From positions 1-63,610 of the forward strand of contig NZ_JAJGTZ010000041.1 of the NCBI RefSeq assembly GCF_020784725.1: a stretch of DNA of 63,610 bases, written 5' to 3'. Positions within the stretch are counted from its first letter, which is position 1, and each line of letters opens with the position of its first letter. The stretch comes from Limosilactobacillus reuteri. GTDB taxonomy: Bacteria > Bacillota > Bacilli > Lactobacillales > Lactobacillaceae. The notes under the pieces were generated by a model. It was given only the letters and a program-made list of their open reading frames with translations. It was not told the DNA's origin and made no database searches. The position numbers and the translations under genes were made by a program. Positions 4,905-63,610 of this stretch are shown here, piece after piece.

Positions 4905-5804
4905 ATGAGATTTAAGAAAATCGTTGCTCTTTCATTATTAAGCATTGGTGGCTTACTAGCAGGGACTATTATGCCGGCAGTAGCAAGTGCTGCCAGCAAT
5001 AAGCCAATTATTGTCGGTTCGAAAAATGTTTCAGAAAGTAAGACAGTCAGTGAAATTTACGCGCTTGCGCTTGAACATGAAGGCTACAAGGTTACTCGGA
5101 AACCCAATATTTCAAACAATGTGATTTTCAGTGCAACGCAAAAAGGTGAAGTCGATGTTTATCCCGATTATACGGGAACAATTGTAGAGGCATATCTTAA
5201 AAAGAAGGGAACTGGCAAGAGTGCTGGTCAAATGGCTAAATTAGCACACGATGGGATTCAAAAAGACGGCTTAACGACATTTGATTACGCACCAGGTGAC
5301 AATCGTCAAGGTATTGCAATGCCAACTAAGGATGCGAAGAAATACCACATTACCAATTTAAGTGAATTACAAAAAAATGCAAAGAAGATTAATTTTGCTT
5401 CACAGGGGGAGTTCGAAAAACGTGCTGATGCTCTTCCAGAAATGAATAAGGTTTATGGGAAGTTTGATTTTAAGTCAATTAAGGACTATGACGTAAATTT
5501 ACTTTATAAGATCATGGAACAAGGAAAGGCACAAGCGGCTCCGGTTTCAACCACTGATGGTCAATTAGCAACTAGTAAGTTTACTTTACTAAAGGATAAT
5601 AAAGATATTTGGCCACCATATAATTTAGTACCAGTAGTAAATAAAAAAGCTGCCAAAAGTCATCCGAAAATGGAGCAAGCCTTAAATAAAGTTGATGCTA
5701 AGTTAACAACTAAGCAATTAACAGATTTAAACAAAAAAGTTAATGTTGACGGGCAGAATTATAAGACCGTTGCTAAAAATTGGTATAATCAAAATATGAA
5801 ATAA
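4905..5804 (+). CDS. Osmoprotectant ABC transporter, substrate-binding protein (OpuC/OsmF family)
   Basis: A 299-aa secreted binding protein for quaternary amines such as glycine betaine, choline or carnitine. It has a signal peptide with a cleavage-like VASAAS motif around residue 27 and no lipobox cysteine. Mature-protein features are IIVGSKNVSES and DVYPDYTGT, typical of the OpuAC/QAT family. Without a lipid anchor it must be held by the permease or released. It is first in a four-gene operon with permease, ATPase and permease. The exact ligand is not determinable by eye. Start follows AGGAGA. Confidence 0.9.
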   Translation: MRFKKIVALSLLSIGGLLAGTIMPAVASAASNKPIIVGSKNVSESKTVSEIYALALEHEGYKVTRKPNISNNVIFSATQKGEVDVYPDYTGTIVEAYLKKKGTGKSAGQMAKLAHDGIQKDGLTTFDYAPGDNRQGIAMPTKDAKKYHITNLSELQKNAKKINFASQGEFEKRADALPEMNKVYGKFDFKSIKDYDVNLLYKIMEQGKAQAAPVSTTDGQLATSKFTLLKDNKDIWPPYNLVPVVNKKAAKSHPKMEQALNKVDAKLTTKQLTDLNKKVNVDGQNYKTVAKNWYNQNMK

Positions 5805-5812
5805 GTACCAAA

Positions 5813-5851
5813 GGGGCAGATAACTAGTTTTTATTGCTAGATGTTTGCTCC
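5813..5851 (+). other. Intercistronic hairpin in the transporter operon
   Basis: GGGGCAGATAACTAG and CTAGATGTTTGCTCC form an imperfect stem between the binding-protein gene and the first permease gene. It lacks a proper U-tract. It could partly terminate or protect the upstream mRNA, giving more binding protein than permease (inference). Confidence 0.5.
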
Positions 5852-5883
5852 TTCATTATAGGTAATAGGTGAGGAGTGATAGC

Positions 5884-6534
5884 TTGCTAGGGCAAATAAT
5901 TCAATATTTTCAAACAAATAGCGGACAATATTGGCAATATGTTGGTCAGCATATTGTTCTTACCGTTGTAACACTTGCGATTTCAATGATTATTGCACTG
6001 CCATTAGGATATGTTGGTTCGCGAATAAAACTAGTTGCTCAATTTTGTGTGATGTTTGCGCAATTGTTACGAATCATTCCTAGTTTGGCATTATTGTTTT
6101 TATTAATTCCGTTTATTGGAACGGGGGTTGTCCCGGCGTTAATTGCTTTAATTGTTTTAGCACTTCCGCCGTTGCTAATTAATACAATTCTTGGCTTTAA
6201 TGAAGTGAGCCCACTATATAAGGAAGTTGGAATAGCCTTAGGGATGGATCAGCGTCAATTACGCCGGCAAATAGAAATTCCTCTTGCATTACCCTATATT
6301 TTAAACGGAATAAAACTAGCATTGGTTGAAATCATTGCTAGTGCAACCTTAGCTACTTATATTGGTGCTGGTGGATTAGGAACCCTAATATTTACTGGTT
6401 TAGGCTTATACGATATGAGTTATGTAGTGATTGGCGCAGTAAGCGTTGCTGTTTTATCCTTGCTGGCAATGATTAGCTTTGATTTTTTAATTAGAAAGGT
6501 ACAAAAGCATGACAGAACCAATTATTCAATTTAA
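5884..6534 (+). CDS. Osmoprotectant ABC transporter, permease 1
   Basis: A BPD_transp_1 family membrane protein with about five or six helices and the EAA-loop signature of OpuCB/OpuCD permeases (EVGIALGMDQRQLRRQIEIP). The start is set at TTG 5884, giving 216 aa, because GAGGAG ends 7 nt upstream. A GTG at 5869 would add five residues but has no ribosome site. Its 3' end overlaps the ATPase gene by 26 nt, implying translational coupling. It pairs with the second permease (7272-7910) in a heterodimeric channel. Confidence 0.88.
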   Translation: MLGQIIQYFQTNSGQYWQYVGQHIVLTVVTLAISMIIALPLGYVGSRIKLVAQFCVMFAQLLRIIPSLALLFLLIPFIGTGVVPALIALIVLALPPLLINTILGFNEVSPLYKEVGIALGMDQRQLRRQIEIPLALPYILNGIKLALVEIIASATLATYIGAGGLGTLIFTGLGLYDMSYVVIGAVSVAVLSLLAMISFDFLIRKVQKHDRTNYSI

Positions 6535-7279
6535 ACATGTTGAGAAGCGTTTTAACGATCAAACAGTGATTCCTGATCTCAATTTCACAGTCAACAAGGG
6601 TGAATTTATAACGATTCTTGGTTCATCCGGTTCAGGGAAAACTACTACCTTGAAAATGATTAATGGGTTGATAGCGCCAAGTGCTGGTGAAATTTTAATT
6701 GATGGACAAAAGCTTCGGGAACTCGATCTAGTAAAATTGCGCCGGCACATGGGGTATGTTGTCCAACAGATCGGATTATTTCCACATATGACAATTGGAC
6801 AAAATATTGCCGTTGTGCCTAAGATGCTGCATTGGGATAAGAAAAAGATTAGTAGCCGGGTTAATGAATTGCTAAATCTTGTTCAACTAACCCCCACTGA
6901 ATATATAAACCGCTATCCTCAACAATTATCTGGGGGCCAACAACAACGCGTAGGAGTGGCAAGGGCCTTAGCAACTAATCCGCCATATGTATTATTTGAC
7001 GAACCCTTTGGCGCACTGGATGCCTTAACAAGAATGGAATTGCAACGAGAGATAAAAAAGATTCATGAATCATTGGCAGAAAAGACTTTTATGTTTGTAA
7101 CCCATGATATTAACGAAGCCTTATTTTTAGGCCAACGAGTAATGATCATGCATGAAGGACGTATTGTCCAATTTGCTACGCCAGAAGAAATTGTGCGTCA
7201 TCCAGCGACCGAATTTGTTGAGCAGCTTTTAGGAACGATTCGCCAAAATCAAGATTTATGGAGGCGGCAATATGATTGA
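6509..7279 (+). CDS. Osmoprotectant ABC transporter, ATP-binding protein
   Basis: A 256-aa nucleotide-binding subunit with Walker A GSSGSGKTT (about residues 34-42), Q-loop VVQQIGLF, signature LSGGQQQRVGVARALA and Walker B YVLFDEP. It is closest in layout to OpuCA/ProV proteins of quaternary-amine transporters but ends without the C-terminal CBS pair that lets OpuA-type ATPases sense ionic strength. Osmotic gating would therefore have to come from elsewhere (inference). It overlaps both flanking permease genes. Confidence 0.9.
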   Translation: MTEPIIQFKHVEKRFNDQTVIPDLNFTVNKGEFITILGSSGSGKTTTLKMINGLIAPSAGEILIDGQKLRELDLVKLRRHMGYVVQQIGLFPHMTIGQNIAVVPKMLHWDKKKISSRVNELLNLVQLTPTEYINRYPQQLSGGQQQRVGVARALATNPPYVLFDEPFGALDALTRMELQREIKKIHESLAEKTFMFVTHDINEALFLGQRVMIMHEGRIVQFATPEEIVRHPATEFVEQLLGTIRQNQDLWRRQYD

Positions 7280-7910
7280 ATATTGGAATGAGAATTGGCC
7301 GATAATGCTTGATGATGTCCGGCAACATGCAACGATGGTTCTTTCTTCATTAGCAATTGCCTTAGTGGTTGCAGTTGTAATAATCTTATTATTTTTGCGG
7401 CGCGAAAAATGGCTTAATAGTTTGGTCTATTTCTTTTCACTCCTATATTCGATTCCAAGTTTTGCATTTTTTGCTTTACTCTTACCGATTTCTGGATTAG
7501 GAATGAAAACCGCGATTATTGTTTTGACGATCTACTCTGAATATGTTCTATTGCGTTCCTTTATTACGGGAATCCGTGGAGTTGATCCACAATTAATCGA
7601 AGTTGGTGTGGGGATGGGGATGACATCTCGACAGGTTTTTCGTCAAATTCAATTGCCGCTAGCATTACCGGCAATTTTTAGTGGAATCCAAGTGGCCCTT
7701 GCCTCGACAATGGCAATGGCGACGATTGCAGCAACGATCAATGCCGGTGGTCTTGGGCAATTATTGTTTGAGGGACTGCAGGGGCAACAAGTAGTGCCAA
7801 TTTTGTGGGGAACAGTTTTAACAATGGCTTTGACGTTAGTGTGCGCAGGAATTGTTCAATTGATTTCGTGGATATTGTTGCATCGGGGGAATAGAGTATT
7901 AAATACCTGA
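7272..7910 (+). CDS. Osmoprotectant ABC transporter, permease 2
   Basis: A 212-aa permease homologous to the first one, with the EAA-loop segment EVGVGMGMTSRQVFRQIQLP and several hydrophobic helices. GGAGG lies 8 nt before the ATG, inside the end of the ATPase gene, with which it overlaps by 8 nt. It completes the order binding protein, permease, ATPase, permease. Confidence 0.88.
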   Translation: MIEYWNENWPIMLDDVRQHATMVLSSLAIALVVAVVIILLFLRREKWLNSLVYFFSLLYSIPSFAFFALLLPISGLGMKTAIIVLTIYSEYVLLRSFITGIRGVDPQLIEVGVGMGMTSRQVFRQIQLPLALPAIFSGIQVALASTMAMATIAATINAGGLGQLLFEGLQGQQVVPILWGTVLTMALTLVCAGIVQLISWILLHRGNRVLNT

Positions 7911-7981
7911 GCAAGAAATTAGTGGTATTCACTGAGAATGCCTATAATTAAAATAGGTAACGAAAATGAGGAGAGTGCTAA

Positions 7982-8410
7982 ATGGACAAAAATGAATTAA
8001 AGAAATTAACGCCAATGCAATATGCTGTGACTCAAATGGGAGTTACTGAAAAACCATATAGTGGTAAGTATGATCGATTTGATGAACCAGGTATTTATGT
8101 CGATGTTGTTAGTGGGGAACCATTATTCTCATCATTAGATAAATATGATGCAGGGTGTGGCTGGCCAGCATTTACTAAACCGATTAAGAAGCGTGCTCTT
8201 ACAGAAAAGCGCGATCAATCGTTTGGGATGGAGCGAACCGAAGTAAGAAGTAAGGAAGCTGATTCGCATCTAGGGCATGTATTTACTGATGGCCCAACTG
8301 AGCGCGGAGGATTGCGCTATTGCATCAATTCAGCCGCTCTGCAGTTTATCCCGGTTGATAAATTGCAAGAAGAAGGCTACGGAGAATATCTAAAGTTGTT
8401 TGATAAATAA
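7982..8410 (+). CDS. msrB: Peptide-methionine (R)-S-oxide reductase
   Basis: A 142-aa MsrB that reduces the R epimer of methionine sulfoxide in proteins. Characteristic segments are GCGWPAF, SHLGHVF and RYCINSAAL, which carries the catalytic Cys. The four Zn-binding cysteines of many MsrB proteins (two CxxC pairs) are absent, giving the zinc-free form common in lactobacilli. It is a stand-alone gene with its own ribosome site (GAGGAG) and is followed by a terminator. Cytoplasmic repair enzyme. Confidence 0.93.
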
Positions 8411-13910: not shown

Positions 13911-14197
13911 AAAAAAGCACTCGTCCCTTTATTCAAAGGACGAGTGCTTCGTGTTACCACCTTTATTTGCTGAATCTTCACAGACCCAGCCTCAGTAGGT
14001 TACTCTAATAAAATAATTAGAATTACCTAGCACTAATAACGTGTGCTAACCCGTTATCGACTAACAATCATCGATACCATTCCAAGCCCATCTTCAGTAG
14101 TTACGCTTGCTTCTTCACACCACCCAGAAGCTCTCTTAAAAGCCTCGCTACTTACTCTGCTTTTCGATATGTTTTAACGTTCAATTAATTATTATGT
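13911..14197 (-). promoter_or_regulatory. Met T-box leader of metQNI
   Basis: On the minus strand this is a full T-box leader. It has a stem I region with a GGTGTGA distal-loop motif, an ATG in a specifier-loop context GAAGATGGG (plus-strand 14089-14091), the T-box AAAGGTGGTAACACG (13950-13967), and a terminator stem AAGCACTCGTCC/GGACGAGTGCTT with a T-run (13911-13949). An ATG specifier matches tRNA-Met, agreeing with the transporter downstream. Uncharged tRNA-Met would favour read-through. Confidence 0.9.
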
Positions 14198-53115: not shown

Positions 53116-53207
53116 AAGTTGCGTACTTCTTTAAATCGTGGTATCCTGTTAAAGTTGATTATCTATGTTTCAGGCAATGATTCATGGCAAAAGGAGCGTA
53201 ATAAATT

Positions 53208-53510: not shown

Positions 53511-53610
53511 GAATTAAGTCTAATAAATAATTATTAACGCTATTTTGTGTCTTTAAGTATTGATCTTTCTCTGCGTATAATATTGATAATTGAGAAAGCG
53601 GGGGCTACCT

Positions 53611-54927
53611 ATGCATGAAAAAATAATTAATCGAATAATTGCTCTGCATCGTTATTCTTTTGTTAGGATAACCCGGCAGACATTAATTATGATTTTTCCC
53701 ATTGTTTTTATTGGAACGATGGCAAAAATGATTTTGAAAACTATTTTTAAACCAGATGGATTTATTTATAATATTGCTTTTCTTGATGTAATACCACAGA
53801 ACGTGTTGCGGATTATTCAATTTATATTAACTAGCATTAGTCAATTAACCTTAGGGATCCTGGGAATCTATACTGTCTATCTGGCAGCAAAATTTACTGC
53901 AAAAAGGTATCGGCGGGACGGTAAATTTGCCGGAATAACTGCTATTTTGACCCTTTTATTAATGTCGAATCGTTATGGTAAATCATCCCTGCATTTCTCA
54001 TTCAGCTTTTATCAGCGCCTCCTTAGTGGTAACAGTTTGCTAATCGTTTTAATCCTTGGTTATGGGATCGGCCAACTTTATCGGTGGTTAACCCCGCCAA
54101 AAGATGGCGATAATACCAATGCGCTACCCTTATTACAAGAGCGGTCATTTAGTTCCCTACTCCCAATGACAATTAGTCTTATTTTTGGAGTGGCGATTGC
54201 GCTTTTCTTAAATTCCAACACAATTTATCATGTTTGGTCAACAAGTTACTCTACTTTAGTTACGACTGCCCAAGAACATCGGCAATTATGGCTGACGTTA
54301 TTAGCTACGATGGGGTTAACAATATTTGATTGGTTAGGATTAGGTGTTCCGTACACTTCAATGGCGTTAACATCTGGCGATTCATTTACGACTAACTTGA
54401 ACTATGCGCTCGCTCATGGAACCCCGTGGAATGTGCCATATGAGTTTTTAGGAAGTTCGCTTTATAATTCATTTGCTAATTTTGGGGGTGACGGCCTGAT
54501 CCTTGCTTTGATAGTTGCCATTCTGTTAACCTCTAATGGCTCCTATATGCATCGGGTTGCACGGTGGACGGCCTTACCAACATTATTTAATTTTAATTAT
54601 GCAACAATGATTGGCTTACCAGTTGTATTTAATCCATTATTTCTGATCCCATTTGTCTTCTTACCGATTGTAAATATTCTTCTCGCCAGTTTAGCGATTA
54701 CGATTCACTTAATACCCTCAACGCCTTACCCGGTTTTACAGGGGACACCTGGCCCGCTTATTAGTTTTTTGGGGACAAATGGTAATTGGGGAATTTTGAT
54801 TTTTACCTTGGGATTGCTTTTAATTGATATTGCTGCTTATATTCCCTTTGTAAAAATGGCCTTAGTCGTTGAAAATCGCTTAACATTAGCAGAACAGGAC
54901 GTGATCAGTCATGAAAAAAATGACTAA
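53611..54927 (+). CDS. Orphan PTS EIIC-type membrane protein (cellobiose/lactose family)
   Basis: A 438-aa polytopic protein resembling the EIIC domain of Lac/Cel-type phosphotransferase permeases. It has about ten helices and a repeat hairpin with GTPWNVPYEFLGSSLYNSFA. No EIIA or EIIB gene or domain is nearby, so it must borrow partners or work without phosphorylation. ATG 53611 lies 6 nt after GCGGGGG. It overlaps the hydrolase gene by 17 nt. Confidence 0.78.
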   Translation: MHEKIINRIIALHRYSFVRITRQTLIMIFPIVFIGTMAKMILKTIFKPDGFIYNIAFLDVIPQNVLRIIQFILTSISQLTLGILGIYTVYLAAKFTAKRYRRDGKFAGITAILTLLLMSNRYGKSSLHFSFSFYQRLLSGNSLLIVLILGYGIGQLYRWLTPPKDGDNTNALPLLQERSFSSLLPMTISLIFGVAIALFLNSNTIYHVWSTSYSTLVTTAQEHRQLWLTLLATMGLTIFDWLGLGVPYTSMALTSGDSFTTNLNYALAHGTPWNVPYEFLGSSLYNSFANFGGDGLILALIVAILLTSNGSYMHRVARWTALPTLFNFNYATMIGLPVVFNPLFLIPFVFLPIVNILLASLAITIHLIPSTPYPVLQGTPGPLISFLGTNGNWGILIFTLGLLLIDIAAYIPFVKMALVVENRLTLAEQDVISHEKND

Positions 54928-55801
54928 ACCAATTCTTCACACTCGTTTGGTATTGATTGGCCTAATATTGATCTTAGTTCTCATGGCAATCCCAGCATAT
55001 TTTTGGATGAAAGATACAAACAAATATTTAGCTGCCCAACATAATTCTAGAATGTCGCCGATAATTATGGTTCCTGGAAGCTCAGCAACACAAAACCGCT
55101 TTAATCCGCTTATTCGTAAACTTAACGAAGATAGCCCTAAAAAACATAGTGTGTTGCGATTAGAAGTAATGAACAGCGGTAAAATTGTTTCGCAAGGATG
55201 GATAAATCGAGGCGATAATGAGCCGATTATCGTGATTGGCTTTGAGAATAATCGTGATGGTTATCAAAATATAAAGAAACAAGCACAAATGGTTAATCAG
55301 GCTTTTGAAAGATTGACGGAAGAGTATAGCTTTAATAACTTTAAGGCGTTTGGCCATTCTAATGGGGGGCTAGTATGGACTTATTGGTTGGAACATTACT
55401 ACTCTGAATATAAAGATACGATTACAATTAAAAGGCTAATGACACTGGGAACTCCATACAACTTTGCGGAATCTTCTGTTAGCCATCCGACGCAAATGTT
55501 TTCTGATTTTGTAAAGTATCGGAGTCGGATTCCTAAAAACTTATTAGTTTATTCGGTTGCGGGGACAGAAACTTATACATCAGATGGTCTTGTTCCAGAA
55601 GGAAGTGTCGATGCCGGGAAGTACATTTACCAAAAACAAGTCGCCCATTATACGAGTATGACGGTCACGGGAAAAGATGCTCAACACTCTAATTTGCCAC
55701 AAAATAAACAGATTGTACGGTTAATTGAAGAGTATCTGCTTGATCCAGATGACAACGGTAATCCTAATTCGCAAAATAAGCAGGGGGCTACTCAAAATTA
55801 A
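54911..55801 (+). CDS. Membrane-anchored DUF915 alpha/beta hydrolase
   Basis: A 296-aa hydrolase. One N-terminal membrane helix (about 12-33) places the domain outside the cell. IIMVPGSSAT supplies the oxyanion region, GHSNGG the nucleophile Ser150, and KDAQHSNLPQN the catalytic His259. DUF915 proteins of lactobacilli are esterase-like with unknown substrates. Coupled to the orphan EIIC and followed after about 50 nt by a sortase. Confidence 0.85.
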   Translation: MKKMTKPILHTRLVLIGLILILVLMAIPAYFWMKDTNKYLAAQHNSRMSPIIMVPGSSATQNRFNPLIRKLNEDSPKKHSVLRLEVMNSGKIVSQGWINRGDNEPIIVIGFENNRDGYQNIKKQAQMVNQAFERLTEEYSFNNFKAFGHSNGGLVWTYWLEHYYSEYKDTITIKRLMTLGTPYNFAESSVSHPTQMFSDFVKYRSRIPKNLLVYSVAGTETYTSDGLVPEGSVDAGKYIYQKQVAHYTSMTVTGKDAQHSNLPQNKQIVRLIEEYLLDPDDNGNPNSQNKQGATQN

Positions 55802-55850
55802 TTAAGCAGGTTATACTAAGTTCATAATAAAAAGTAAGGAGTTCAATATC

Positions 55851-56555
55851 GTGAAAAAAGATAAAAAGCGATCATTTGAATGGTTACGGTGGACAGCGGT
55901 TGTTGTACTGTTATTGATTTCAGTTGTCTTAATTTTTAACCAACAGATTAAGTCTTACTTAGTAGGTAGTTATAGGCCTGAGATTACCCGACAGACAGTT
56001 CAAAGCAACCAAAAGAAAAAAGCGACCTATGATTTTCAAAGTGTCAAAGATCTTAACTTGCAAACAGCTGCAAAGGCACGCGCAAATAAACAATCGATTA
56101 ATACTATCGGAGCAATTACGGTTCCAGCTATTAACATGACGATTCCAATTGCTAATGGGGTTGATAATACAACCCTCGCGTTAGCAGCGGGAACTCTTCG
56201 TCCAGATATGAAAATGGGAGAAGGCAACTATGCGTTAGCTGGTCATAATATGGCCCATGGAAGTAAAATCCTATTTTCTCCATTGTACTATCATGCCAAA
56301 GTGGGGCAGATGATTTATATCACCAACATGGATCGCGTTTATGAATATAAGATTTATCAACGTGAATTCATTGCGGCGACCCGGGTTGATGTGGTAGACA
56401 ATACGCCGGAAAAGATTATTACTTTGATTACTTGTGATGCTACCGGGGCTAATCGGTTGATGATCCGCGGTAAATTTGTTAAATCAGAACCATTTACGCA
56501 GGCACCACAAAATGTGCAAAAGAATTTTAGCGAGAAATATACAACAGGTCGTTAA
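55851..56555 (+). CDS. srtA: Class A sortase
   Basis: A 234-aa transpeptidase that attaches LPxTG proteins to peptidoglycan. The N-terminal membrane anchor is at 13-29. Catalytic residues are His132 (LAGHNM), Cys195 (TLITC) and Arg202 (ANRLMIRGKF), the expected class A triad. It starts with GTG after AAGGAG. No LPxTG substrate gene occurs in the window. A repeat copy begins 1 nt after the stop. Confidence 0.93.
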   Translation: MKKDKKRSFEWLRWTAVVVLLLISVVLIFNQQIKSYLVGSYRPEITRQTVQSNQKKKATYDFQSVKDLNLQTAAKARANKQSINTIGAITVPAINMTIPIANGVDNTTLALAAGTLRPDMKMGEGNYALAGHNMAHGSKILFSPLYYHAKVGQMIYITNMDRVYEYKIYQREFIAATRVDVVDNTPEKIITLITCDATGANRLMIRGKFVKSEPFTQAPQNVQKNFSEKYTTGR

Positions 56556-56556
56556 A

Positions 56557-56681
56557 GGGAGCGAGACAGAAGTCACTTGTGACTTCATTTTTCGACGCGA
56601 AGCTAGCCTCTGGGAGCCCCCGCAAGCAACAATAGGCCTCCAATGTTCGGTTTTTGAGCCGGACGTTGGAGGCCATTGTTG
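56557..56681 (+). repeat. Structured 3'-UTR repeat, copy C
   Basis: Full copy. It has GGGAGCGAGACAG, the GAAGTCAC/GTGACTTC hairpin, the conserved linker with GGGAGCCCCC, and a long terminal stem CAACAAT-GGCCTCCAATGTTCGG/CCGGACGTTGGAGGCC-ATTGTTG. Compared with copies A and D, one stem pair is changed on both sides (T-A to C-G), so pairing is preserved. A T-rich stretch follows. Confidence 0.9.
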
Positions 56682-56836
56682 TACTGCGTATTTGCTTTTT
56701 ATGAAAGTAACTTAACTTATAGCAAAGTCCTTTTTTTATTTGCAAATTTTTAGCGATATTTGTAATCCATTCCAAATTAAGAAAAACACAATGACGATAA
56801 AAAATAGCCAAATTAAAATAAATTTTAAGTAAACAG

Positions 56837-56878
56837 ATGAGCGAACGGACAGGAATGCCACCGTTTGCTCATTTTTTT
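56837..56878 (+). terminator. Terminator upstream of ppsA
   Basis: ATGAGCGAACGG pairs with CCGTTTGCTCAT, followed by TTTTTTT. The stretch 56682-56836 holds no gene I can support. Confidence 0.85.
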
Positions 56879-56894
56879 GCTGTAAATAAATTTC

Positions 56895-56923
56895 TTGACT
56901 CTTTTTCAGGAACCACCTAAGAA
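56895..56923 (+). promoter_or_regulatory. Candidate ppsA promoter
   Basis: TTGACT (56895-56900), 17 bp, then TAAGAA (56918-56923), 30 bp before ppsA. The -10 is weak. Confidence 0.4.
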
Positions 56924-56954
56924 AGAGATACATTAAATTTAAGGAGATGCAGTA

Positions 56955-59336
56955 ATGGAAAAACGCGAACAACAGAATGTTTTATGGTTTGATGAATTGC
57001 ATCGCTCTGACGTTAATCTTGTTGGTGGGAAGTCCTCTTCCTTAGGTGAAATGACTTCCGCAATGAAAATTCCAGTTCCATATGGATTTGCAACGACAAC
57101 GCACGCTTATCGGCAATTTATGGCAGAAACAGGATTAAATGGTCAAATTAATAAATTATTAGCTGAAATTAATGACTATGAAAATGCTGATGAACTTCAT
57201 CGGGTTTGCTCACATATTCGGCAGATGATTGTCGAAGCACCGATGCCAAGTGAGATCGCTATGACAATCAAAAAAGCTTATGCAGCTTTATCAGAAAAAA
57301 TGGGTGAAACTGAACCATTTGTAGCAATTAGGTCAAGTGCTACTGCTGAAGATTTACCGAATGCCTCATTTGCAGGGCAACAAGAATCGTATTTAAACGT
57401 GCGTGGTGCTGAAATGGTATTAGCAAAGGTTCAAGAATGTTATGCGTCTTTGTTTACCGATCGGGCAACATATTACCGGCATAAGCAGCATTTTCCTCAT
57501 GAAAAAGTGGCTTTATCGGCGGCTATTCAGATGATGGTTTTCTCAAAAGCTTCCGGGGTTATGTTTTCAGTCAACGTGGCGAACGGAAATGATGCCCAAA
57601 TTGTTATTGATACGATTTGGGGATTAGGTGAATACATTGTTTTAGGAAAAGTAACACCAGATCATTTTGTAATTAATAAAAATAACCTTCAAGTAGTAGA
57701 ACGTTCGGTAGTTCCGAAGGCAATTGAATTGTGTCAAACCCCTGGTGGCGGAGTGCATGAAGAACCGGTGCCAGCAGACCGGGCAATTCGGCCAGCACTA
57801 ACTGAAGACCAAATTCATGAATTAGCAGGATACGCAAAGGAAATTGAAAAGCACTATGGGTGTTACATGGACATGGAGTTTGCGTTAGACGCACGAACAG
57901 ATCGGTTATGGCTAGTGCAAGCTCGTCCAGAAACAGTTTGGTCGAATAAAAATAATAAGCAAGCAACAAAGGAGTCCACTGTCGCAATGAATAAAACTAA
58001 AAAAATTTTGGTCAAAGGCTTACCAGCAAGTCCCGGCGTTTCAACTGGAAAGGTTCACGTAATTGCAGATCCTAAAGATATTGATGAATTTGAAGAAGGA
58101 GAAATATTAGTAACGTTGATGACTTCTCCTGATTGGGTACCGGCAATGAAAAAAGCAGCAGCAATCATCACTGATAATGGTGGAATGACCTGCCATGCCG
58201 CAATTGTTTCTCGTGAAATGCAGATCCCTTGTATCGTTGGAACTAAGAGCTGTGGGCAAGCAGTTACTGAAATGCTGCAAGATGGTGAACAAGTAACTGT
58301 TGATGCTAAAAATGGAGTTGTTTATCAAGGCGACCTCGCCGAGCAATTTAATAGTGAAAAAGAGACAACAGAGCGTGGCTATGTAGAATATTACGCGCCG
58401 ACCGCAACCAGAGTCATGATGAATTTAGGCGATCCAGAACTAGCAGATAAATATGCTGAACTGCCTGTTGATGGTATTGGTTTAATGCGAGAAGAGTTTC
58501 TTTGGACGACTTATATTCATGACCATCCTCTTTACTTAATTGAAACGGGTCATCCCGAAAAAGTTGTTGATATGTTAGCAGATGGGATTGCTAAAGTGGC
58601 CCGGGCGATTGCTCCGCGGCCGATGGTTTTACGTTTTTCTGATTTTAAGTCTGGTGAATACCGTAATTTAACGGGCGGCGATCAATATGAGCCACGTGAA
58701 CCTGCCGACTTATTGGGATGGCGTGGCGCTTCTCGGTACTATGATCCCAAATATATCGAAGCTTTTAAGCTAGAACTTGCGGCGGTAAAAAAGGTGCGTC
58801 AAGAATTTCGCTTAAAGAACCTCAACGTAATGATTCCGTTTGTTCGCACCGTTGCTGAAGCTGATAAAGTAACAAAATTAATGGCAGCGGCCGGTTTACA
58901 CCGTGGGCCTGATTTTAAGGTTTACATGATGGCTGAGATTCCAAGTAATATCATCTTGGCGGATCAGTTTAATAAGTATGTTGATGGCTATTCGATTGGG
59001 TCCAATGATTTAGCAATGCTTATTTTAGGTTGTGATCGGAACAATGATACAGTGGCCCACCTCTTTGATGAACGCAATCTTGCGGTAAAACGTGCGATTA
59101 GTCACCTTATTAAGACTGCTCACCAAGATAACAAGACAGTTTCAATATGTGGGCAAGCGCCATCTGAATATCCTGAATTAGCATCTTTCTTAATTCAACA
59201 AGGAATTGATTATATTTCAGTTAATCCAGATATGGTTAAAGAAACAAAACAGAATGTAGCAAGGATTGAACAGCGCATAATCCTAGATAACGCGACTGGC
59301 AAAGGACGACAATCTGTGAAAAATTATGCATGGTAG
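56955..59336 (+). CDS. ppsA: Phosphoenolpyruvate synthase
   Basis: A 793-aa enzyme converting pyruvate plus ATP to PEP, AMP and phosphate. Domain order is ATP-grasp PPDK_N (VGGKSSSLGEM near residue 22, RSSATAEDLP near 126), the swivelling phospho-His domain with GGMTCHAA (His414), and the C-terminal PEP/pyruvate barrel (SIGSNDLAML, SICGQAPSE). AAGGAGA precedes the ATG. First gene of the five-gene cassette between two direct repeat copies. Confidence 0.94.
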   Translation: MEKREQQNVLWFDELHRSDVNLVGGKSSSLGEMTSAMKIPVPYGFATTTHAYRQFMAETGLNGQINKLLAEINDYENADELHRVCSHIRQMIVEAPMPSEIAMTIKKAYAALSEKMGETEPFVAIRSSATAEDLPNASFAGQQESYLNVRGAEMVLAKVQECYASLFTDRATYYRHKQHFPHEKVALSAAIQMMVFSKASGVMFSVNVANGNDAQIVIDTIWGLGEYIVLGKVTPDHFVINKNNLQVVERSVVPKAIELCQTPGGGVHEEPVPADRAIRPALTEDQIHELAGYAKEIEKHYGCYMDMEFALDARTDRLWLVQARPETVWSNKNNKQATKESTVAMNKTKKILVKGLPASPGVSTGKVHVIADPKDIDEFEEGEILVTLMTSPDWVPAMKKAAAIITDNGGMTCHAAIVSREMQIPCIVGTKSCGQAVTEMLQDGEQVTVDAKNGVVYQGDLAEQFNSEKETTERGYVEYYAPTATRVMMNLGDPELADKYAELPVDGIGLMREEFLWTTYIHDHPLYLIETGHPEKVVDMLADGIAKVARAIAPRPMVLRFSDFKSGEYRNLTGGDQYEPREPADLLGWRGASRYYDPKYIEAFKLELAAVKKVRQEFRLKNLNVMIPFVRTVAEADKVTKLMAAAGLHRGPDFKVYMMAEIPSNIILADQFNKYVDGYSIGSNDLAMLILGCDRNNDTVAHLFDERNLAVKRAISHLIKTAHQDNKTVSICGQAPSEYPELASFLIQQGIDYISVNPDMVKETKQNVARIEQRIILDNATGKGRQSVKNYAW

Positions 59337-59351
59337 AAAGGATTGAATAAA

Positions 59352-61139
59352 ATGCAAATTTTTATTGATATTAATGCTTCTGAAAATGGTAATGGTTCGC
59401 AAGAGTTTCCGTTTAAATACATCCAACAAGCAGCAGATATTGCTCGACCGGGAGATTATGTTCAGGTAATGCCGGGGGAATATCATGAGGAAGTTCATCC
59501 ACAATACTCTGGAACGAGCGATAAGCCAATTATTTATGCGTCTGCTAAACAAAATCGGGCAATCATCACGGGAGCTGACCGTGTTACTGGCTGGAAACAT
59601 GTTGCTGGTCCGGTATGGCAATTAAAACTCCCTAATGCTGAATTTGGTGACTATAATCCATACAACGTTTTAGTCGATCAAACCTTTAATCATGCCGGTG
59701 AAATTTTCCTAAATAATAAAGCGATGTACGAAGTTGATCAGTTGGCAAAAGTTGAAACACCAAGCGAAAACAAACTTTCGCGAGACCAGAAATTTACCCG
59801 TTATACCTGGTATACCGAACAGTTGCCAGCGGAAGATACAACGGTAATCTATGCGAACTTCCAAGAGCAGAATCCTAATGATGAACATGTTGAACTGACT
59901 TTCCGTGAAACGTGCTTTTATCCAGAAAAAGCAGGACTCAACCACCTCATTTTATCTGGCTTTACAATGACTAAAGCTGCTTGTCGGTGGGCATCTTCAC
60001 AATATAACAAGGGGATCATTGGTACTAATTATGGTCAAGGATGGAAGATTGCTAAATGCGACATCTCTCATGCTAAGTGTTCTGGGATCTCCCTTGGTCG
60101 AAATATTGTTCCAACCATTGACGATGATAAGGTTTATCCACACCGGATTAAGAACAATACAATTCATGATTGTGGACAGACCGGGATTATCGGTGTTGAA
60201 GGCAATCCATCCCCAATTATTGAACACAATAGTATTTACAATATTAATACTCGGCAAAACCTTGTTAGTGATGATGTTAGTGCGATCAACCTTTCACCAG
60301 CGATTGGGGCTAAGATTTTACGTAATTGCATTCATGATTGTACGCGCGGAATTTGGCTCGGCGGCAAGGTTGAAGACACTCAAATTTCACGAAACGTATT
60401 CTACAACAATTCACTGCCAGATTCATTTGAGGTTACAAACGAAAATCGCGAGGACTTAATCGCAGCGCTTGGAGAAGATATTGAAATTAAAGATTCGATG
60501 GGCGTAACTTTGATTGATAACAATTTCTTATTATCAGATTGTGCACTCAAGCTTGAATCTAAGGGTATCCTTCTCGTTCATAACCTGATTAATGGCAGTG
60601 TGGAATGGTTAAGCAATACGACGGTTGCTGAAAATGATCCTTACTACCACCGCCTTTATCAACAAAATGTGACAGAAAGTGCTCCTTACGATTCTTCCTG
60701 TTTCTATAACAATGTCTTTATCCGCAAGAACCTCCGGAGTGAAATGGCAAAATTAATTGCATTTGCCCACGAACAGGCAAGCGAACAACCAATTGATAAT
60801 CATATTAGCGATGATAATGCTGCTTATGTTGGTCTAGCCAGTGGACAACGAAGCTATATTCCAGCAAATAAAGCAGGAAATATTTTTATGAATGATGAGC
60901 AAGAAGACGTTAAGATTGACATCGATTCAAATGAAGATGGGGTATTTCTCGATAGTAATATTTGCGACTACTTGAATGAGGATACCAGTCGGGTGATCGC
61001 GGTTGGTACTACTCCCGAGACTGCCCGTGATTTTGATACAGATTTCTTAGGGAACCATCGTGAAGGAATTAGTGTAACAGCTGGACCTTTTGATGCGAAA
61101 GAAGAATATAGTCGACGCTTATTTAGATTACTGTTTTAA
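59352..61139 (+). CDS. Cytoplasmic right-handed parallel beta-helix protein, possible carbohydrate-active enzyme
   Basis: A 595-aa protein. The N-terminal segment (SENGNGSQEFPFKYIQQA, then ARPGDYVQVMPGEY) is DUF1565-like, followed by GADRVTGWKHV as seen in GH141-type beta-helix enzymes. Repeats from about 210 to 440 (NTIHDCGQTGI, NSIYNI, NCIHDCTRGI, NVFYNN) are PbH1 coils. A smaller C-terminal part is acidic. There is no signal peptide, unusual for pectin or xylan enzymes. ATG 59352 follows GAAAGGA. Substrate unknown; its place within glycolytic genes suggests a sugar-phosphate or storage-glycan role (inference). Confidence 0.8.
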   Translation: MQIFIDINASENGNGSQEFPFKYIQQAADIARPGDYVQVMPGEYHEEVHPQYSGTSDKPIIYASAKQNRAIITGADRVTGWKHVAGPVWQLKLPNAEFGDYNPYNVLVDQTFNHAGEIFLNNKAMYEVDQLAKVETPSENKLSRDQKFTRYTWYTEQLPAEDTTVIYANFQEQNPNDEHVELTFRETCFYPEKAGLNHLILSGFTMTKAACRWASSQYNKGIIGTNYGQGWKIAKCDISHAKCSGISLGRNIVPTIDDDKVYPHRIKNNTIHDCGQTGIIGVEGNPSPIIEHNSIYNINTRQNLVSDDVSAINLSPAIGAKILRNCIHDCTRGIWLGGKVEDTQISRNVFYNNSLPDSFEVTNENREDLIAALGEDIEIKDSMGVTLIDNNFLLSDCALKLESKGILLVHNLINGSVEWLSNTTVAENDPYYHRLYQQNVTESAPYDSSCFYNNVFIRKNLRSEMAKLIAFAHEQASEQPIDNHISDDNAAYVGLASGQRSYIPANKAGNIFMNDEQEDVKIDIDSNEDGVFLDSNICDYLNEDTSRVIAVGTTPETARDFDTDFLGNHREGISVTAGPFDAKEEYSRRLFRLLF

Positions 61140-61151
61140 GGAGGCAAAGAA

Positions 61152-61931
61152 ATGCGCAAACCGTTTATTATTGCGAACTGGAAAATGAATAAAAACGTTC
61201 ATGAATCTGTTGCATTTGTTAAAGCAATTAAAGAAAAGCTCCCGGCAAATAAAGAAATCGGAATTGCGGCTCAAGCAGTTTCGCTATATAACATGAAAAA
61301 AGTGGCGGGATCTTCCAACTTACAAATTATTGCTCAAAACGCATCTGCTGAGTTAGAGGGACCGTATACTGGAGAAATTAGTATGCGAAGTTTAGCTGAT
61401 GCTGGCGTGACATATGTGATGCTAGGACATTTAGAGCGCCGGCGCCTTTTTAACGAGAGTAATGATTCAATCAATCAAAAAGTTTTGGCGGCCCTCAATG
61501 CCGGAATTATTCCAATTATTTGTACAGACGAAGAGATGGTCCAAACAGAAGTTAACGGAAAAATTCATTATGTATTTCGTCAACTAAAGAGTGTCCTTAA
61601 AGGGGTACCAGCTAACAAACTCTCACAGATAGTTATTTCCTATGAACCGAGTTGGGCTGTTGGGAGTACACATCAAGCAAATCCAGACATTGCTGAAGAG
61701 GGATGTCAGGCAATTCGTCAAAGTCTAATTGAAATGTATGGTAATGAGATTGGCGAGCAAGTCCGAATACTCTATGGTGGCAGCGTTAATCCCGAGAACA
61801 TTGGCCAAATTATGAGTAAAGCAAATGTTGACGGGGCACTAATTGGTCGTGCAAGTCTCGAAATTGAAAGCTTTTTACAAATGATTAATTATATCGGATT
61901 AGCGAGCAAGCAGAAGTTACAGGTAATTTAG
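61152..61931 (+). CDS. Divergent triosephosphate isomerase paralogue
   Basis: A 259-aa TIM-barrel. The catalytic triad is intact: Lys11 in ANWKMNK, His93 and Glu165 in YEPSWAVGS, with loop YGGSV. The normally strict GHSERR reads GHLERR (Leu94), and the ICVGE strand reads ICTDE. It is therefore probably a second, diverged TPI, either working in this pathway or on a related substrate. AAGGAGG precedes the ATG. Third gene of the cassette. Confidence 0.85.
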   Translation: MRKPFIIANWKMNKNVHESVAFVKAIKEKLPANKEIGIAAQAVSLYNMKKVAGSSNLQIIAQNASAELEGPYTGEISMRSLADAGVTYVMLGHLERRRLFNESNDSINQKVLAALNAGIIPIICTDEEMVQTEVNGKIHYVFRQLKSVLKGVPANKLSQIVISYEPSWAVGSTHQANPDIAEEGCQAIRQSLIEMYGNEIGEQVRILYGGSVNPENIGQIMSKANVDGALIGRASLEIESFLQMINYIGLASKQKLQVI

Positions 61932-61942
61932 GAGGAAGAATG

Positions 61943-62809
61943 ATGGCTTACTTTGATAATGGAAACAAACTTTTTGATGACGCCCGGAAGAATCAATACG
62001 CAATTGGGGCATACAATATTAATAATCTTGAATGGACCCGGGCAATTTTGCGGGCGGCAGCTGAGACTAATACCCCTGTACTGATCCAAGTTTCAATGGG
62101 AGCCGCCAAGTATATGGGGGGTTATAAATTTGTCAAAGATATGGTTGAAGACCAGATGGACGCAATGGGAATTAAAGTTCCGGTTATTCTGAATCTTGAT
62201 CATGGTGACTATGATGCAGCGATTGAATGTATTAACTTAGGATATTCGTCAGTCATGTTTGACGGACATAAATTACCGATTGAAGAAAATTACGCCAAAA
62301 CCAAAGAGATTGTCCAATTGGCACATTCACGCGGCATTGCGGTTGAAGCTGAAATCGGTAAAGTGGGAGAAAACCAGGATACCAGCAGTGGGGAACTTGC
62401 TGACGTTGAAGATGCAATGGCGTTTGCCGCAATGGGAGTGGACCGTCTTGCTTGTGGAATTGGTAATATCCACGGCATTTACCCTGCTAACTGGCCAGGG
62501 TTAGACTTTGACCGCCTTCAAGAAATTGCGAATGCGATTGATATTCCGCTCGTGCTTCACGGTGGTTCGGGAATTCCTAGAGAACAGGTTCAAAAAGCAA
62601 TTTCAATGGGGATTGCAAAGGTGAATATCAATACTGAATTCCAGTTAGCGTTCCAAGATGCAACACGGAAGTATATTGAAAATGAATTAGACCTCAATAA
62701 AGAACAAAAAGGATATGATCCGCGGAAATTATTACTTCCTGGAACAGATGCAATAACTGCTAAAATGAAAGATATGATTGAATGGTTAGGCACGCCAGCA
62801 GTTGCCTAA
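61943..62809 (+). CDS. fba: Class II fructose-bisphosphate aldolase
   Basis: A 288-aa zinc aldolase of the FbaA/GatY family. LNLDHGDYD has the catalytic Asp and a Zn-binding His; GNIHGIYP and LHGGSGIP supply the other His and phosphate-binding residues. YDPRKLLLPG is close to Bacillus FbaA. A tagatose-bisphosphate specificity cannot be excluded. The ATG at 61943, 7 nt from GGAGG, is preferred over 61940. Confidence 0.9.
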   Translation: MAYFDNGNKLFDDARKNQYAIGAYNINNLEWTRAILRAAAETNTPVLIQVSMGAAKYMGGYKFVKDMVEDQMDAMGIKVPVILNLDHGDYDAAIECINLGYSSVMFDGHKLPIEENYAKTKEIVQLAHSRGIAVEAEIGKVGENQDTSSGELADVEDAMAFAAMGVDRLACGIGNIHGIYPANWPGLDFDRLQEIANAIDIPLVLHGGSGIPREQVQKAISMGIAKVNINTEFQLAFQDATRKYIENELDLNKEQKGYDPRKLLLPGTDAITAKMKDMIEWLGTPAVA

Positions 62810-62840
62810 TTATATGCCTAATTATAATGGAGGTTATGGA

Positions 62841-63497
62841 ATGGCAATCACAGTTTACTTTGTCCGGCATGGTGAGACGTACTTCAACCGGTTTGCCCGT
62901 CTGCAAGGATGGTCAGATACTCCGCTTACAGAAAAGGGGAAGATGAACGCTAAAAAGATCGGTCAAGTTTTAGCGGACTTAAGGATCGATTATCTTTTCG
63001 CTAGTGATTTAAAACGAGCAGTTGATACTGCACGGCTTTTAATTGCGGATCATCCAACTGCAACGATGAAGGAACCGATTCAAAAGGAATTCTTCCGCGA
63101 GGTATTCTACGGGTCTTTTGAAGGCCATAGTAACGAGGAAGGCGCAATTTGGGCAAGCTATCTTGAAGGCAAACGATTTCGGCGGATCGGTGAATTAGTT
63201 GATGAATTTGGCGTTGAAAAAGCGCATGACTTGCTGAAGGCCGCCGATCCAGCGCACCTTGCAGAAGATAGTAATGAATTAAATGCCCGTGTAGAGCAGG
63301 CAATTACTTTTCTGCAAAGCTTACCTGACAAGAGTAATGTGGTTGTAGTAGCCCATGGATCGATTATCCAATACATTGCGGGGATGTATGGCGAACCGGG
63401 ATATAAGTACGAAAACTTACATAATGGCGCCTTGATGAAGGTTCAGTTAACAGCTAAGGACGTTGAAATTACCGGATACAATCAATTTCAACTATAA
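62841..63497 (+). CDS. Histidine phosphatase family protein (phosphoglycerate-mutase type)
   Basis: A 218-aa protein with the phospho-His motif VYFVRHGETYFN at the N-terminus, LQGWSDTPLT, SDLKRAVDTA and the second catalytic His in VVVAHGSI. It resembles the GpmB/PhoE branch, so it may be a phosphatase rather than a true mutase. ATG 62841 has GGAGG 7 nt upstream. Last gene of the cassette; the repeat begins 2 nt after the stop. Confidence 0.88.
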   Translation: MAITVYFVRHGETYFNRFARLQGWSDTPLTEKGKMNAKKIGQVLADLRIDYLFASDLKRAVDTARLLIADHPTATMKEPIQKEFFREVFYGSFEGHSNEEGAIWASYLEGKRFRRIGELVDEFGVEKAHDLLKAADPAHLAEDSNELNARVEQAITFLQSLPDKSNVVVVAHGSIIQYIAGMYGEPGYKYENLHNGALMKVQLTAKDVEITGYNQFQL

Positions 63498-63499
63498 AA

Positions 63500-63610
63500 G
63501 GGAGCGAGACAGAAGTCACTTGTGACTTCGTTTTTCGACGCGAAGCTAGCCTCTGGGAGCCCCCGCAAGCAACAATAGGCCTCTAACGTTCGGTTTTGCC
63601 GGACGTTAGA
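63500..63610 (+). repeat. Structured 3'-UTR repeat, copy D (truncated by window end)
   Basis: Identical to the reverse complement of 1-117 over the shared length. It lies in direct orientation to copy C, so the two copies bracket the ppsA cassette. The window ends within the terminal stem. Confidence 0.92.

Follow-up and report, generated by a model that had tools for sequence, protein, structure and literature searches.

We analyzed a five-gene set at the end of a 63,610-nucleotide stretch of Limosilactobacillus reuteri DNA (contig NZ_JAJGTZ010000041.1; hereafter the window). Five co-directional open reading frames on the forward strand, at 56955-63497, encode a phosphoenolpyruvate (PEP) synthase, a beta-helix protein, a triosephosphate isomerase (TPI, family TIM), a class II fructose-bisphosphate aldolase (FBA) and a histidine phosphatase:

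56955..59336, + strand: pps, phosphoenolpyruvate synthase (pyruvate, water dikinase), 793 aa, recognized by TIGR01418, NF005057 and Pfam domains
59352..61139, + strand: beta-helix gene, 595 aa, homologue of glycoside hydrolase family 120 (GH120) without the GH120 catalytic residues, recognized by domain and XylC matches
61152..61931, + strand: tpi paralogue, 259 aa, recognized by TIM (4.2e-79) and an alignment of 17 TIMs
61940..62809, + strand: fba, class II FBA, recognized by TIGR01859 (351.1 bits vs 343.05) and a genome search
62841..63497, + strand: histidine phosphatase, branch 1, 218 aa, starting at ATG 62841, recognized by His_Phos_1 (1.4e-33)

The spacers between the genes are 15, 12, 8 and 31 nt in gene order, in agreement with the first-pass annotation of this DNA, which had described five closely spaced genes. 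A consensus scan listed no terminator-like site in the four gaps, which are too short for much, and the five genes are likely read as a single transcript; the position of the beta-helix gene, 15 nt past pps, did not speak for a transcript of its own. Its start was placed at the ATG at 59352; the listed TTG at 59343 abuts the ribosome-binding site. The enzyme classes named in the first-pass annotation held when searched against family models. The pps product scored 953 bits with TIGR01418 (cut-off 739.75) and 1040 bits with NF005057, also above its cut-off, and has the three-domain architecture of PpsA (PPDK_N, PEP-utilizers, PEP-utilizers_C). The TPI belongs to the TIM family (TIGR00419, 146 vs a cut-off of 130.6), the aldolase passed the equivalog cut-off of TIGR01859, with PRK07315 as its top-scoring model (387.4, under the cut-off of 443), and the phosphatase matched none of the 21 NCBIfam families listed above their cut-offs, mutase models included. 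A genome search revealed three TIM genes in total, so that the module tpi is indeed a paralogue, as had been claimed, whereas fba is the sole class II FBA gene. The module TPI keeps the active-site Asn, Lys, His and Glu, residues whose roles in TIM are established, and carries Leu in place of the Ser of the GHSERR motif after the catalytic His, making an altered substrate possible. In trio-only genomes of the genus this position holds Leu (G034, G023, G041), Ala (G026, G047) or Ser (G019). The third TIM (locus L084, 5228-5998; G000:C36) is 63% identical to the module TIM and has Ile where the canonical TIM of contig C21 has this Ser; its neighbours suggest no clear role.

To determine how far the genes are linked in relatives, as the first-pass annotation had proposed, we surveyed 50 genomes of the genus. 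Matches to the beta-helix protein were found in 20 of them, 12 having the short form of about 595 aa, and in all 12 the short gene sits between pps and tpi; the genes are thus not scattered. The order pps, beta-helix gene, tpi, fba, phosphatase gene is kept in 11 of the 12, genome G035 being the exception. In the G035 record (L097, G035:C1:1612000-1629000) the module genes are adjacent, in reversed order, all on the + strand and mostly with 3-nt spacers, unlike relatives, and the record looks more like concatenated coding sequences than a real chromosome. Genome G037 (L096) has pps split over several frames at 5165-7539, and its beta-helix gene and its tpi-fba-phosphatase trio match at full length. 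Across the genus, pps is present, whether intact, broken or split, in 22 genomes and fba in 18. A sortase gene before the set and a low-molecular-weight phosphatase gene after it are common to 9 of the 12 module genomes. Neither was found in the flanks fetched from G005, G030 and G031, and therefore the set was relocated there or its surroundings changed.

The beta-helix protein carries the GH120 insertion domain (Glyco_hydro_120_ins, 7.1e-26; PF21258, 91.4 bits, cut-off 27) and a Beta_helix domain (4.3e-9), and the XylC structure 3vst matched it with an E of 2.8e-72. By this homology it is a descendant of a GH120 beta-xylosidase. Alignment to XylC, on which all statements about the pocket rest, placed two of its codons at the catalytic positions:

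60360..60362, + strand: codon of G337, in the column of the XylC nucleophile Asp382
60489..60491, + strand: codon of K380, in the column of the XylC acid/base Glu405

We compared the 12 short proteins with 27 different regular GH120 rows taken from the genus and the family. The nucleophile column holds Gly in 12/12 short rows and Asp in 27/27 regular rows, and at the acid/base column Glu, present in 27/27 regular rows, is lost in 10 of the 12 short ones. Three further XylC positions, K358 and H360, which do not vary among the 27 regular rows, and W113, which is constant in 26 of them, are altered or absent in all 12 short proteins. According to PMC8954004, alanine at either catalytic residue abolishes activity of L. 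reuteri XylC on pNP-xyloside, and the roles of Asp382 and Glu405 are supported by inactive alanine mutants in this enzyme and in two other GH120 enzymes. With neither the nucleophile nor much of the sugar-binding site left, the beta-helix protein should not, as judged from the alignment, act as a GH120 hydrolase. The earlier suggestion that it acts on a sugar polymer thus stands in part: the GH120 ancestry fits it, but the residues for hydrolysis are gone. The short protein resembles the GH120 beta-xylosidases (XylC of Thermoanaerobacterium saccharolyticum, PDB 3vst/3vsu/3vsv, and Lr-XylC of L. reuteri ATCC 53608) in its insertion domain and beta-helix and in having no signal peptide apparent by eye. 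It differs from them in its catalytic positions and in lacking the GDW loop (XylC 111-113), in its length (about 595 aa vs about 670-700 aa) and in the location of its gene in a central-carbon operon rather than in a xylose context.

That the protein is an ordinary cytoplasmic GH120 beta-xylosidase, in an operon handling xylo-oligosaccharide carbon, is hardly tenable and is contradicted by the sequence. The clear GH120 homology over two stretches would fit such an enzyme, as would the xylose contexts in which regular GH120 genes of the genus sit; the one in locus L094 adjoins genes whose products resemble, by eye, a xylulokinase, a regulator of AraC type and a GPH symporter, and the L. reuteri GH120 gene lies within the xyl cluster described in PMC8954004. 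The loss of the catalytic and pocket residues argues against it, none of the five genes is a transporter or xylose gene, and four genomes hold both the short and the regular GH120-type gene.

Comparison of substitution rates, carried out on seven of the 12 genomes, gave dN/dS values of 0.047-0.071 for the beta-helix gene, which yielded a value in five of the seven pairs, vs 0.039-0.056 for pps, likewise in five pairs. The beta-helix gene had no stop in 7/7 rows tested, the 12 short rows share 234 invariant columns, and 39 of their invariant residues do not occur in any of 26 regular rows (a truncated row having been excluded from this comparison). Since the catalytic residues are lost yet purifying selection is strong and lineage-specific residues have become fixed, the protein has likely been repurposed with a maintained function and is, on these comparisons, neither a xylosidase nor a relic. 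The alternative of a decaying passenger gene without present function could draw on its dN, the largest of the five genes (0.30 between the present genome and caccae, 0.43 between the present genome and G031), and on its loss in genome G034. We consider this very improbable given its uninterrupted frame, its low dN/dS, its invariant columns and its constant position between pps and tpi; neither a dN/dS near 1 nor frequent disruption was seen.

In the beta-helix tree the short proteins group together with support 100/100, and the branch leading to them is long, at 1.53 changes per column; their exact sister is unsure, since the program flags a meeting of long branches. In a survey of 301 genomes drawn from the family, 19 matched the beta-helix protein at E 1e-50, of which three (G000, G037 and G007, all in the genus) have the short form and the other 16 the regular one. 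Scans of contigs with this single protein, which reach close relatives only, found close loci in six members of a named collection: Limosilactobacillus balticus, caviae, rudii and caccae, a Lactobacillus sp. and a Lactobacillus metagenome-assembled genome, which places the present genome near L. reuteri. Tentatively, and with less than even confidence, we propose that the short family is a neofunctionalised, non-hydrolytic GH120 lineage, either regulating PEP synthase or aldolase through metabolite binding or acting as an enzyme with new chemistry on a phosphorylated sugar. Metabolite binding is proposed because of the strong conservation and the fixed place between pps and tpi. Basic or polar residues fixed in the lineage include K220, K232, R250, N313, R347, R434 and K507, and this selection might suit an anion-binding site; others of the 39 are hydrophobic or acidic. 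Two findings pull the other way. The short rows of G030 and G031 retain Glu at the acid/base column, and structure prediction lent a new pocket no support (AlphaFold on seven sequences, pLDDT 36).

Exploring the sequence upstream of pps, we found three features:

56761..56774, + strand: palindrome TGTAATCCATTCCA resembling a catabolite-responsive element (cre), by sequence match, one mismatch to the CcpA consensus
56839..56870, + strand: leader hairpin followed by a T run, ahead of the likely promoter, seen by eye
56895..56923, + strand: predicted operon promoter, TTGACT, 17 nt, TAAGAA, by sequence reading and leader alignment

The promoter assignment is likely correct, the motif being conserved in the leader alignment; it was not reported by the consensus scan. 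The hairpin and its T run were seen by eye in 10 of the 12 printed leaders, the diverged caccae version included, G030 and G031 being the two without it; the terminator scan, whose loop limit is 8, did not list it. Lying before the pps promoter, the hairpin could end upstream transcription or be an attenuator.

All cre counts rest on matches to the CcpA consensus. The palindrome position matches this consensus perfectly in two relatives. Of the 10 stand-alone pps genes of the genus, nine were tested (the split pps of G019 was excluded), and each of the nine has a perfect match upstream, vs 0.005 expected. Eight of these matches are 35-73 nt ahead of the start; G047 has its perfect site at -298 and a further site, with one mismatch, at -53. 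This G047 gene (L110, 4698-7085) carries one in-frame stop. Ahead of the module pps, a cre-like site with at most one mismatch was found in 8 of 12 genomes, two of them perfect, vs 0.445 expected, at -183 to -194. CcpA-controlled PEP synthase is a known kind of system. The present locus resembles it in having a PEP synthase above cut-off, in a genus whose stand-alone pps genes show such sites; it differs in that pps here heads a set with an isomerase, an aldolase, a phosphatase and a GH120-derived protein, and in the remote position of its mostly imperfect site. Judged by these predicted sites, the operon is probably under CcpA catabolite control.

The history of the set was examined with trees of pps, the beta-helix gene and fba. 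In the pps tree, built from 20 of the 22 genomes (the broken gene of G037 and the gene of G019, split over contigs, were left out), the module genes, 11 rows, fall on one side of a branch with support 100/99, and their main groups match those of the beta-helix tree. A point on the other side is the fba tree (16 of 18 matching genomes, G035 and G036 left out), which does not unite the module rows; G034, G023 and G041 fall among them. Fisher tests of co-occurrence ignore shared ancestry and were not taken as proof. Given the clustering of module pps, the agreement with the beta-helix tree and the pattern of the fba tree, the set was probably joined once and then inherited, with the trio as its older part.

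Genome G034 (L095) has the same neighbourhood, leader and trio as the module genomes, and what it lacks is precisely pps and the beta-helix gene. The junction (7947-8351) falls in the similar ribosome-binding-site stretches that precede pps and tpi, leaving tpi directly behind the operon leader with the cre-like site retained ahead of it, and the loss is, as read from the alignment, apparently a clean deletion. The FBA of G034 is identical to that of the present genome, and a search of G034 for the beta-helix protein gave no match. G034 is probably the L. reuteri type strain DSM 20016. Table 1 of PMC5193401 lists the consecutive genes lreu_0237-0239 as TPI (259 aa), FBA (288 aa) and 'phosphoglycerate mutase' (218 aa), which match the module trio in type and length; G034 holds the same trio, without the pps and beta-helix gene that complete the five-gene operon here. 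For DSM 20016, PMC8954004 reports no predicted beta-xylosidase. G034, with both genes lost, and G037, with pps broken and the beta-helix gene intact, offer natural comparisons.

We next considered the direction of carbon flow. PEP synthase is a gluconeogenic enzyme. In the present genome, glyceraldehyde-3-phosphate dehydrogenase (GAPDH), phosphoglycerate kinase (PGK), a canonical TIM and enolase are clustered on contig C21; the search covered GAPDH, PGK and enolase, the phosphoglycerate mutase step lying outside it. Among the 50 genus genomes no fructose-bisphosphatase (FBPase) scored above cut-off (PF06874, PF03320 and PF00316, each 0/50; two PF00316 matches were sub-threshold). Phosphofructokinase (PFK) gave no match above cut-off in the present genome and one weak match, in a search that did not include pfkB-like kinases. 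In strain DSM 20016, lreu_0238 (fba) rose with glycerol by +3.73 and +3.96 log2 and lreu_0239 (the phosphatase gene) by +3.69 and +3.67 log2 in two stationary comparisons, that is, about 13- to 16-fold (PMC5193401 Table 1, with data drawn from its reference 31). We propose, as a reading with an even chance of being right, that the set is a catabolite-controlled gluconeogenic operon whose phosphatase possibly replaces FBPase and which includes a neofunctionalised GH120 protein. Inherited vertically, the operon would serve under sugar shortage to build hexose phosphate out of pyruvate and triose phosphate. Pyruvate would be converted to PEP by PEP synthase; enolase, PGK and GAPDH, encoded elsewhere in the genome, would carry PEP to triose phosphate; and the dedicated TPI and the only FBA would combine two trioses into fructose 1,6-bisphosphate. 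Removal of one phosphate to give fructose 6-phosphate would most likely fall to the histidine phosphatase, in place of the absent FBPase. CcpA would probably impose catabolite control on transcription, and the beta-helix protein would bind a metabolite of the route, perhaps a phosphorylated sugar, thereby acting on the pathway or regulating it. The first-pass annotation had also drawn carbon from pyruvate up to fructose 1,6-bisphosphate; its enzymes are in place, along with GAPDH, PGK and enolase, and the PFK result and the single FBA fit it, while the upward direction of flux continues to be an inference.

A different explanation is that the trio serves a minor Embden-Meyerhof-Parnas (EMP) route downward. 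Fructose 1,6-bisphosphate would then be supplied by a pfkB-like ribokinase and cleaved by FBA and TPI, the phosphatase would act as a phosphoglycerate mutase, and pps would do no more than replenish PEP. In its favour, PMC6821008 reports EMP flux in L. reuteri (about 7% in JCM 1112, and of major importance in some strains) and names a pfkB-like ribokinase gene as the source of PFK activity, so that FBA may run downward; the trio persists without pps in G034; and the phosphatase is listed as a phosphoglycerate mutase in Table 1 of PMC5193401. Set against this are the lack of a PFK above cut-off here, within the scope of that search, the score of the phosphatase below the cut-off of every mutase model listed, the rise of fba and the phosphatase gene with glycerol, and the leading position of pps in all 11 sets whose genome record is normal. 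We regard the downward route as unlikely, though as a serious competitor. The upward route under catabolite control is favoured because of the FBPase gap, the PFK result, the PEP synthase, the cre sites and the glycerol response.

In addition to the reported EMP flux and PFK activity, several observations count against the gluconeogenic operon. The tpi-fba-phosphatase trio occurs without an adjoining pps in G019, G023, G041 and G047, and G034 has the trio without any pps; G026 has tpi-fba with no pps found and, after fba, a phosphatase match of 20 residues only. Conversely, six genomes hold pps without a module-type fba. In the expression table of PMC5193401 the TPI gene lreu_0237 has no listed change, and other mutase-annotated genes are also up, by +1.2 to +2.2. 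According to PMC6821008, the DSM 20016 sequence is without the island holding GAPDH, PGK, TPI and enolase, and the upward route would therefore be incomplete in that strain. As to regulation, the module cre-like site lies about 190 nt ahead of pps, an unusual distance, and is mostly imperfect, and four genomes (G030, G031, G036 and the odd record G035) lack it; before tpi, no cre-like site with at most one mismatch was found in the four stand-alone trios tested. The trio of G026 (L087, G026:C82, after 1837) seems eroded, on a contig that is short.

The first-pass annotation had described the set as bracketed by repeats and possibly mobile. Two copies of a structured repeat, neither of them part of the operon, are indeed present:

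56554..56654, + strand: structured repeat copy, one of 34 genome matches, fold z -6.7
63497..63597, + strand: second structured repeat copy, found by repeat search, not present here in the 11 other module genomes

The two 101-nt copies are 97% identical and 6.9 kb apart, which is unremarkable given that the repeat has 34 matches across the 2.0-Mb genome of 43 contigs. The repeat folds strongly. Its copies extend past 101 nt and their ends resemble, by eye, imperfect terminal inverted repeats; from these two traits it may be an element like a miniature inverted-repeat transposable element. A copy lies between the sortase gene and pps in 5 of the 12 module genomes, the present one included and one of them at 77% identity, and a copy after the phosphatase gene was found in the present genome only. 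The bracket is a matter of chance, and the description as repeat-bracketed did not hold. The downstream copy meets a run of Ns just beyond the window end; copies here and in L005 enter N runs, with part of the repeat resuming beyond, and repeat counts near such runs may be inflated.

A mobile cassette carried between the repeat copies is scarcely credible and is mostly refuted. Two direct copies do flank the set here, and the surroundings differ in 3 of 12 genomes. The genome-wide spread of the repeat, its downstream copy in one genome only and the agreement between the main groups of the pps and beta-helix trees, which look vertical, argue against it, and the G034 site lacking pps and the beta-helix gene has its junction at a ribosome-binding-site sequence, not at a repeat. 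Among the loci fetched, no relative had repeats at both ends and no empty site with a single copy was found. A plasmid search with the beta-helix protein only, the other four proteins not being searched, matched five records, none close and the best at 32%; megablast of the 6.5-kb set against phages gave no match, and two scans confirmed no viral contig. The best plasmid match is from L. brevis, where the gene adjoins an AraC regulator and an MFS transporter, with two IS30-like transposases nearby.

Already known are the assignment of the L. reuteri trio to the EMP genes and the occurrence of GH120 beta-xylosidases in the genus, which are reported also for the L. reuteri 121 draft genome (PMC5347244). 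A search of the open-licence literature turned up no publication about the five-gene operon or about GH120 proteins with altered catalytic residues. The aldolase of pfkA-less L. reuteri is treated as part of a minor glycolytic route in PMC6821008, which notes fba as unusual within PFK-less lactobacilli. The location of the sole FBA in a pps-led set, in a genus with no classical FBPase above cut-off in 50 genomes, provides a testable alternative. If it is true, the aldolase works upward and the neighbouring histidine phosphatase closes the route. With a neofunctionalised beta-helix protein, a glycoside hydrolase fold would moreover have been recruited into a gluconeogenic operon. The locus also calls for caution in annotation, as homology alone would label the beta-helix protein a beta-xylosidase. 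Its lineage is a good target for study, being conserved, within a defined operon and accompanied by natural loss strains.

Elsewhere in the window, Rfam detected only a T-box (13933-14176, - strand), a tRNA and an L31 leader (53163-53196, + strand), none within the operon. Before the operon, at 53590-56555, lie genes for a phosphotransferase system EIIC-like protein, a DUF915 hydrolase and the sortase, which stay with the operon in 9 of 12 genomes. In G036 (L098, 2591-4262) about 1.67 kb lies between the sortase gene and pps, upstream of the conserved leader, and contains a 381-codon open frame that resembles, by eye, an IS30-type transposase.

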